Below, piece by piece: positions 39,501-42,600 of a DNA stretch of 45,756 nt. The notes under the pieces were generated by a model. That model saw only the letters and a program-made list of their open reading frames with translations. It was not told where the DNA came from and did not search any database. This DNA comes from Thermoflexia bacterium (GTDB lineage: Bacteria; Chloroflexota; Anaerolineae; B4-G1), in NCBI GenBank assembly GCA_011192155.1, contig DUEK01000018.1, forward strand, positions 1 to 45,756, given 5' to 3'. Within the stretch, counting starts at the first letter, position 1, and each line of letters begins with the position of its first letter. Position numbers and translations under genes: made by a program.

Positions 39501-39550
39501 CATCCTATCTCGTCAGGCCCCAGTGTCACCGGATCGGGGGTGATGCTCAC
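30554..39550 (-). CDS. Very large extracellular repeat protein, C-terminal segment: PKD, DUF11-like, beta-helix and choice-of-anchor-like modules
   Basis: 2998-aa ORF. Beta-helix motifs (NRIYTNTATFQGGGLYALNS), repeated [RY]VAx...CATVQxAVDxAxAGDxVxVAxGxYT modules, DUF11-like repeats (TDTLPLSLTNIISATSAGATVERVGQTITWTL), C-terminal PKD (YIWDFGDGA). In frame with the upstream ORF; the GTG at 39550 is inside a conserved domain and is probably not a real start. Confidence 0.85.
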   Translation of the reverse strand: MSITPDPVTLGPDEIGWIDFTVTVPAAPTSTVLIDHIIVTATATTLCSDSHVTEHTIIINQEPGLTLVQNESGGGLPGDTVTYEHILTNTGNWWDSTITVTWETDPDWVVSVTPDEPVVEDSESVTLTVEVIVPETAQCEAANTTVITATSYAGYYAPDYQIVSVSVTDITTVTHISDVEFAPDRAGNLVSDPAQPVTATYTHRITNTGNCRQQFGFLSHSSQGFTVTTPSWVWLDPEDATPVTIFITAPPTATDNLLVDTTVITAYHWGEPDLPTAAVVDTTIVNQAAGVELAPNNTSVITQPAITTIPVTYTHTLTNSGNYTDTFDLTWLNEDGWETTVNGQTEQPAEVTVGASRTTTVSVVTILPEWVYTLTNQTVVTAASQLSPTVTAIATDTTTARRPGVLLWPDHNQYVAPGDIITYTHRLTNVGGISDSYVITYHSIMGWASVTPTVVPTLAPGSGVLVLATISVPTSTDILSGTEDLLVITATSQITDIVYDTAVDVTTVPYVPGAALTPDPGNQASQAGIPVPYTHTLTNLGNYTESFHLQIWSEFANGSVSPEWVLDLGPGEAYTSVIVTVLLPTHAAAGETEETQVLISFAGERVVARDYTLVLATTGTRHVAPEGTDDNNSCLVPYDYGPCATVQQAVDQALAGDDVLVAQGVYTDVQATSGYTEAVYLDKNLTLLGGYVNAGWDASPDPAINETALDAGGQGRVVYVAAGVTATIEGFHLRQGYVEGDGAGIYVASGAAPTVRRNFIYSNTATGAESKGGGVYYAYTSGDSDLVLERNMIYGNTAGAEGGGFYVYGSYGSGGRQRVWNNLFYHNVADDGGGLYLAGDSALVWNDTFYSNTATNGGGIYLAAGSSSISNTILSSNANYGVFKPTGLGGAPQLDYNLAWVNSPDNFNAEVDPGANTITTTTPGFVDPAGYDFHLRSNSNAIDQGDPNGTLPDEDLDGNSRPLASYHDIGAYENGLQSKKTAVEYAPAGGTLTYTIAITNSGQAHRDIVVTDRLHDYLDYAGLSSTPTGSSNYSDHTVSWEGVVYSSTTAYITVTTTVTDWLIAGTIITNVAEINYVPGSVVTTVVTGTHGARYVAETGHDTMNNCMRPDMPCLTIQYAADHALAGDEVQVASGVYTGTSQVAYLDKDLTLTGGYTPTLPAWIYDPSANTTTLDAQGNTGVVIANSATGVLGGLHIINGADGVDVNAATVVISQCHIYNNTDGVDVNGGSYTLINSVVAHNSGAGVRAASGSDGSLLHNTFARNAAAGAIVSDTAHFTNTIFYSHSVGVNVVAGSAYLSNTLWYSNTANQGNVISSADLFDVDPRFENPDGVDYHIQPGSSVIDEGLDTWLSEDIDGDARPLLQHPDLGADEFALVIVKSAPVSADPDQIITYTLMLQGGESGLVLTDTLDAYLTHVGAVECDVGSCGYLPSQRAITWSGDAPAAYPIYITYTAQITSWLAPGAQILNDAQVLIEGDVHNTNQTATTINTASGPRYVDAASGVDSDGAGNNCLASWKPCATVQWAVDQAQAGDTVKVAGGDYTGSGSEVVGVSKNLTLTGGYAASDWNASAPEANPTRLSGQDARRVVVVTGAVSVTIDGFHLRNGFVNGDGGGLYANGGATVTLVNSRVYNNSVSGTGNGGGVYAGSGALTLSQSQVYSNTAISGSGVYAANANLTLRDNRIYTNTATFQGGGLYALNSPVLMERNVILDNQADLGGGGAITNTARITMTNNIIGANRASAGGDGLLFDGSGSGLLLHNTIADNGDEGARVGNFTLALTNTILSGHTVGITTSHAGASVAADHTLLNGNGTDYNASSGSIVNSNDVTGSPNYRDQAGMDYHITGSSAALGAGADAGVSADIDGENRASPPDIGADQYNLRVDRWASAAELAPCQTMTHTLMLVNVADSAISGVVLTDTLPAEVAYNTGSLTYTAGGGAYSGSPPAITWNGDLAAQSSVYITYTVNVNPYLADGAVITFTVAISDPVSVFSGNPLTATVRTIPAAISKAGENSISPAGQATIGELVTYTLVYTVPGGHKAYDPVVVDQLPRLVESGGALSTDPALAYAPGSLSITGATTQTEEISADGGAITWTLNSVTATCGAPAVATLTFNARVLDRADNGDGDTLTNTVTVSYTEGSLSGPARLTSAHQTFALIEPGLTLAHTTSPALNLGMGDLVIVAITATNSGNATLYDVIITDTLGSGWVVSDTGGSVFTHTFGGIAAGDSSAVALTARVNSDVGANVPLIATAQGQGSSMPGVASEERIYEDTIQATPRTGYPDLVISKSGPATSVPGRTIFYTLVYTNAGVVRAEGVQITDTLPLSLTNIISATSAGATVERVGQTITWTLTAPVSRSVSGQVWITGTVMSIAQRGDILLNTAGIAALATTEQALGNNSDFITTTVVEPEAHIVKVMAPSTDLGSGDEVTVTLTVSNTGSSPLYDAVVTDTLPAGLSFQSALPVPDAQAGAAITWTLSSLGAGQQQVYTVIALVEETVGANETLTNRAGVLGDSQSGAVAEQRFYTDTAQAMVTTGYPDLTFEKSGPAVRSPNQSIVYTLTYTNTGKVRAVDVRITDTLPLSLTNVVSSTSAGATAERVGQTITWTLNDPVSRNASGQVLVTAVVAGTAQEGSVLTNSAAISTATSEPDKADNGDLVTTTVRMPSLSITKTLDPEEPLTAQLLTYTLTISNSGLGDATDLLISDTLPLSTTYHSCGGGDCGFNSGNDTITWTLPLLPAGEQTPVIFTVLVDSGAYSSTVIINQTFAVTCAQGVGDAGGPVTSTVPLRRELELEPPAAQEFILPGAQVVYTHTLINWGTVVAPAVTLTVSDPPAGWAYTLQPTQVISLDVGAAAGKLVTLTVQSLADSGNAAATITATWEGVTETYAVDTTNIDCVPISNISIDYTPTTPRIGQTVTFTGTVATNCTTPIDYIWDFGDGAQVEQTGVGQTISVASHLYDDDADYTVTFTATNCGGSAHDTEIITVNPYNIYLPLVLRSYH
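31743..33000. repeat. Internal duplication with 768-bp spacing in the DUF11-like region (approximate extent)
   Basis: GTGATGGTCTGCCCCACGCGCTCCGCCGTCGCGCCGGCC at 31743 matches GTGATGGTCTGGCCTACGCGCTCCACCGTCGCGCCGGCA at 32511; exactly 256 codons apart. Confidence 0.75.

Positions 39551-42600: not shown

Follow-up and report, generated by a model that had tools for sequence, protein, structure and literature searches.

A single in-frame TGA inside a genome-specific hairpin splits the gene of a giant secreted beta-helix/Ig-repeat protein in an Anaerolineae metagenome bin

Large secreted proteins built from beta-helix, NEW3-Ig, DUF11 and PKD segments are encoded in Anaerolineae, and complete members of the family carry a signal peptide at the start and a YLP motif at the C-terminus. 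Giant surface-protein genes interrupted by a nonsense codon, as pseudogenes or strain-level truncations, show a single internal stop, two halves in one frame, a second half without a start, and intact homologues elsewhere. In bacterial selenoprotein genes an in-frame UGA is followed immediately on its 3' side by the SECIS element (PMC9312934), the apical loop of which contains a conserved G (PMC1794560), and the finding of such genes rests on homologues with cysteine (PMC9312934). In this study, we describe a gene that shares features with the first two groups. It lies on a stretch of 45,756 nucleotides (the window, meaning the whole stretch of DNA that was analysed) from an Anaerolineae metagenome bin that amounts to 3.4 Mb in 178 contigs, with 83% completeness and 5% contamination. 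The collection of genomes used for comparison holds no other species from this genus.

On the minus strand, a reading frame opening with the ATG at 45274 runs for 1862 codons to a TGA at 39688-39686 and then for another 3043 codons to a stop at 30554. Within these 4907 codons, frame-0 stops occur at codon 1862 and at the last codon only, and the TGA, which is followed by C (TGAC), is the sole internal stop. The upstream ORF (39686-45274, minus strand, 1862 aa) has a Shine-Dalgarno sequence, AGGAG, at 45286-45282, seven bases ahead of its ATG, and a clear signal peptide at its N-terminus; it continues through beta-helix blocks and NEW3/Ig-like repeats and ends in DTTTVNLKCGIGWMG at the TGA. The same-frame continuation (30554-39685, minus strand, 3043 codons) holds Ig-like repeats, beta-helix, DUF11 and PKD segments and closes with a YLPLVLR motif in the C-terminal sequence NIYLPLVLRSYH (30554-30592, minus strand), a motif common to the complete homologues. 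Pfam searches identified right-handed beta-helix (Beta_helix, 6.8e-49), NosD, NPCBM_assoc (NEW3), DUF11, DUF7507 and PKD domains; beta-helix, Ig-like, DUF11 and PKD together are the domain set of the giant Anaerolineae beta-helix/Ig secreted proteins. No solved structure matching the repeat region was found. The C-terminal motif, in the form [IVL]YLP[LIV][VI]xR, is conserved in giant secreted proteins (window 30554-30592, minus strand; homologues L033, L035, L036 and L038) and is possibly a sorting signal. The first ATG, GTG or TTG of the downstream ORF is a GTG at 39548-39550 (minus strand), 45 codons past the stop and inside a conserved strand; no Shine-Dalgarno sequence was seen at GTG 39550, and neither a signal peptide nor another export signal was found in this ORF.

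The downstream region was matched in 49 of the 149 genomes searched (this genome included), and none of the matches listed has an internal stop. The homologue passes the junction in one frame in five or more genomes from other genera. G027 encodes a single ORF of 4328 aa (stop to stop) that aligns at 44% to residues 1-4313, so that nearly the whole length is alignable, and G002 encodes a single ORF of 3616 aa (stop to stop) aligning at 40%. Both begin with a signal peptide and end in YLP[LI][VI]xR, and in these complete homologues the ORF is uninterrupted from one to the other, whereas here the TGA intervenes. Contig-limited ORFs crossing the junction are present in G009, G007, G005 and G037, the last of these from the same order; an apparent frameshift in the G037 homologue was rejected, as a run of N accounts for it. 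Since the homologues are single ORFs at this point, two of them spanning signal peptide to YLP motif, the ancestral form was one protein, and the alignments support one ancestral ORF that appears to have been broken by one in-frame TGA. An earlier note on the window had proposed a single secreted protein split in this way, with the GTG, lacking a Shine-Dalgarno sequence and a signal peptide, as the first usable start of the second ORF; it had named a real downstream start with a signal, or homologues that are natively two proteins, as grounds for abandoning the proposal. The relatives it wished to see compared are uninterrupted across the junction, neither of the two grounds was encountered, and its description of the locus was borne out.

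At the junction, the homologues follow the consensus DTTTVNL..GVxLxPDxxxxVxSDPxxxVxVxYTHTLxNxGN. Unlike in these relatives, one repeat of the window lacks the GVxLxPD strand and has KCGIGWMG*LNQSHRF (with the stop as asterisk) instead, two codons longer, and from SSNP onward the window aligns with the homologues gap-free. A point that the first reading had not noticed is that this conserved strand motif has given way to a hairpin peculiar to this genome, and that the TGA lies within it. The hairpin is formed by a near-perfect inverted repeat (39643-39702, minus strand) with a left arm at 39702-39679 that contains the TGA, a 9-nt loop, and a right arm at 39669-39643. Ninety bases of the junction fold at -35.7 kcal/mol (z -5.0 against mononucleotide shuffles), whereas the seven homologous sites gave z values of +0.4 to -1.7, which places the hairpin in this genome only. 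Dinucleotide shuffling of a 136-nt stretch gave a z of -2.3, and one shuffle in 200 was as good. A count over 481 kb of gene interiors gave 21 hairpins that score this well, dispersed repeats among them. As about 0.2% of coding positions fall in such hairpins, the coincidence of hairpin and stop, an association noticed after the fact, is suggestive of something other than chance.

A mobile or repeated element at the junction was rejected: the 121-bp junction has no second copy in the genome, where only a 22-nt match was detected. This stretch (window 39626-39647, minus strand) shares 21 of its 22 bases with a dehydrogenase-like gene, L109 (G000:C165:938-959; E 0.004), which is probably chance. 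Viral contigs yielded no copy, and across the whole window no Rfam family was detected. Separately, two families of dispersed hairpins, AGAAACCAGGTTTTT..AAAAACCTGGTTTCT and AGACCTCCGAGGT..ACCTCGGAGGTCT, recur genome-wide (window 30134-30166 and many sampled contigs, L068-L085), and the one at 30134-30166 stands directly downstream of the giant gene.

A relative-rate comparison with several homologues revealed a window-specific excess of change in residues 1876-2075, the two repeats after the stop (Ig-like repeats, window 39050-39649, minus strand), where identity is about 0.31 against 0.40-0.51 among relatives; these repeats are thus more divergent here than in the other large Anaerolineae proteins. 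Residues 2076-2310 are divergent in most pairs, and residues 2311-3300 are conserved about as well as in the relatives and as the upstream part; the comparison reaches residue 3300, beyond which the alignment is thin. Relaxed constraint across the whole downstream half, as indicated by the first relative-rate test, was rejected: with finer bins, the excess was limited to residues 1876-2310, and it was clear for 1876-2075 only. No second lesion or further stop was found in the 9.1-kb downstream frame. The downstream decay expected of a nonsense pseudogene is therefore not seen, and in this the locus differs, as it does in having its stop within a genome-specific hairpin, from the nonsense-interrupted giant genes described above. 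Because the 9.1 kb hold no second stop and the downstream part is largely conserved, the interruption is young, artefactual or tolerated via readthrough; the normal conservation of residues 2311-3300 likewise indicates that the gene either was broken recently or is no pseudogene.

We hold it somewhat more probable than otherwise that the TGA is a real, young nonsense codon, within genome-specific hairpin sequence, in a gene for a secreted surface protein of about 4.9 kaa with beta-helix and Ig-like repeats. A hairpin-forming sequence would have replaced the GVxLxPD strand at the loop between two Ig-like repeats, bringing the in-frame TGA with it. Possible origins of such a sequence are a quasi-palindrome/template-switch mutation, insertion of a small palindrome, or a local change of older date to which one substitution was later added; as the two arms of the hairpin differ from each other, one very recent template switch by itself is not a neat fit. 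Ribosomes would then stop at the TGA and yield a truncated secreted protein of 1862 aa without the C-terminal YLP motif, and the remainder would be made by background readthrough only. An internal stop that is not found in the homologues is what marks a nonsense pseudogene or truncated allele, and a single miscalled base would not also create a hairpin and remove a motif. The break would be young, since conservation across residues 2311-3300 is much the same as upstream. The fragmented metagenome bin, the 9.1 kb of downstream frame without a second lesion and the fact that the hairpin association was seen only afterwards count against this reading. What the sequences show is one ancestral ORF, the stop with its genome-specific hairpin, and a downstream part without a start or export signal; that the DNA is real, how the change arose, and the loss of function are inferred.

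The main rival, which is possible although clearly less probable than a real nonsense codon, is that no stop exists in the true sequence and that a faulty consensus or local misassembly, in a stretch of the bin prone to hairpins, produced the TGA. Besides the fragmentation of the bin, it is favoured by the intact downstream frame, most of the examined part of which is normally conserved, and by a weak local dip in codon usage around the stop (p about 0.02-0.05). On the other side, a 624-kb sample of the genome contains no other same-frame split, the present locus being the sole candidate pair of long ORFs in one frame with a second member that has no start within 22 codons, and a simple base error leaves the hairpin and the loss of the motif unexplained. 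The k-mers of assemblers are usually longer than 7-8 bp, the length of the perfect arm, which also argues against such a fault. A compensated pair of frameshifts was considered as well, as the -1 frame around the stop holds GVTEP and PVQFEP, which resemble the missing strand motif; exhaustive frame switching gained at most 1 bit against a 67-repeat profile (17.3 to 18.3), so that compensated frameshifts are not needed, and this candidate was rejected.

Programmed or functionally important readthrough, in which the TGA would be read part of the time through a weak TGAC context and the hairpin to give short and full-length secreted forms, is unlikely. TGAC is a leaky stop context, the hairpin around the TGA is unusually stable, and the intact downstream frame is conserved for the most part, all of which this explanation would accommodate; however, stop and hairpin are both absent from all homologues, so that no conserved stop context exists. 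Moreover, the genome has prfB, and long ORFs end in TGA more often than in any other stop (119 of 277 complete ORFs), which makes TGA a normal stop here. While the TGA occupies the A site, the left arm of the hairpin would be in the ribosomal channel, and the hairpin would therefore be open. The more specific proposal, that a lineage-specific RNA hairpin around the UGA makes a leaky stop by which each cell secretes short and full-length forms in a set ratio, is very improbable.

Very improbable, too, is that two separate proteins are made, the second initiated at an internal codon: the downstream frame is open and long, as this would require, but it has no plausible start or export signal, and the homologues are single proteins.

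A selenocysteine codon was rejected as the least probable reading of all, for although the genome encodes tRNA-Sec, SelB and two proteins, FdhA and SelD, whose genes each contain one in-frame TGA, and a hairpin of 5 bp with a 5-nt loop beginning 22 nt past the TGA is present at the junction, this SECIS-like hairpin folds at -4.6 kcal/mol against -12.7 (FdhA) and -11.3 (SelD), is equalled in score at 17% of ordinary TGA ends and at 30% of coding positions drawn at random, and competes with the stronger hairpin, while the homologues have E, Q, T or similar residues here, never Cys, and a redox domain was not found. The junction thus resembles FdhA and SelD of the same genome in its in-frame TGA and its host with SelB and tRNA-Sec, and differs from them in lacking a strong SECIS, Cys homologues and a redox domain. 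The FdhA gene (L113, G000:C38:14899-16935), whose own hairpin has a GGUCU loop 19 nt past the UGA, and the SelD gene (L118, G000:C155:4170-5102) are genuine selenoprotein genes that annotation under table 11 would split.

Of the three causes that the earlier note had offered, the locus is consistent with a nonsense mutation or an assembly error, and programmed readthrough, selenocysteine included, found no positive support in conservation, an adequate SECIS or a Cys homologue. Elsewhere in the window, the plus-strand region 18594-23650 encodes a protein of 1071 aa in which several RAMP/Cas7 domains are fused (matched by Csm3, Cas7 III-D and gRAMP models); next come an unmatched protein of 292 aa and a Cas6-like protein, and no Cas10 was noted among the scanned window proteins.

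Automatic annotation would give two proteins at this locus, one of them without an export signal, in a family that has one. Readthrough, if true, would be a rare bacterial case of programmed UGA readthrough without selenocysteine. Most likely, however, the gene was broken recently in an ordinary manner, or the assembled sequence is flawed, and no novel reading of the genetic code is involved; knowing the lesion-like nature of the split avoids a false case of recoding.
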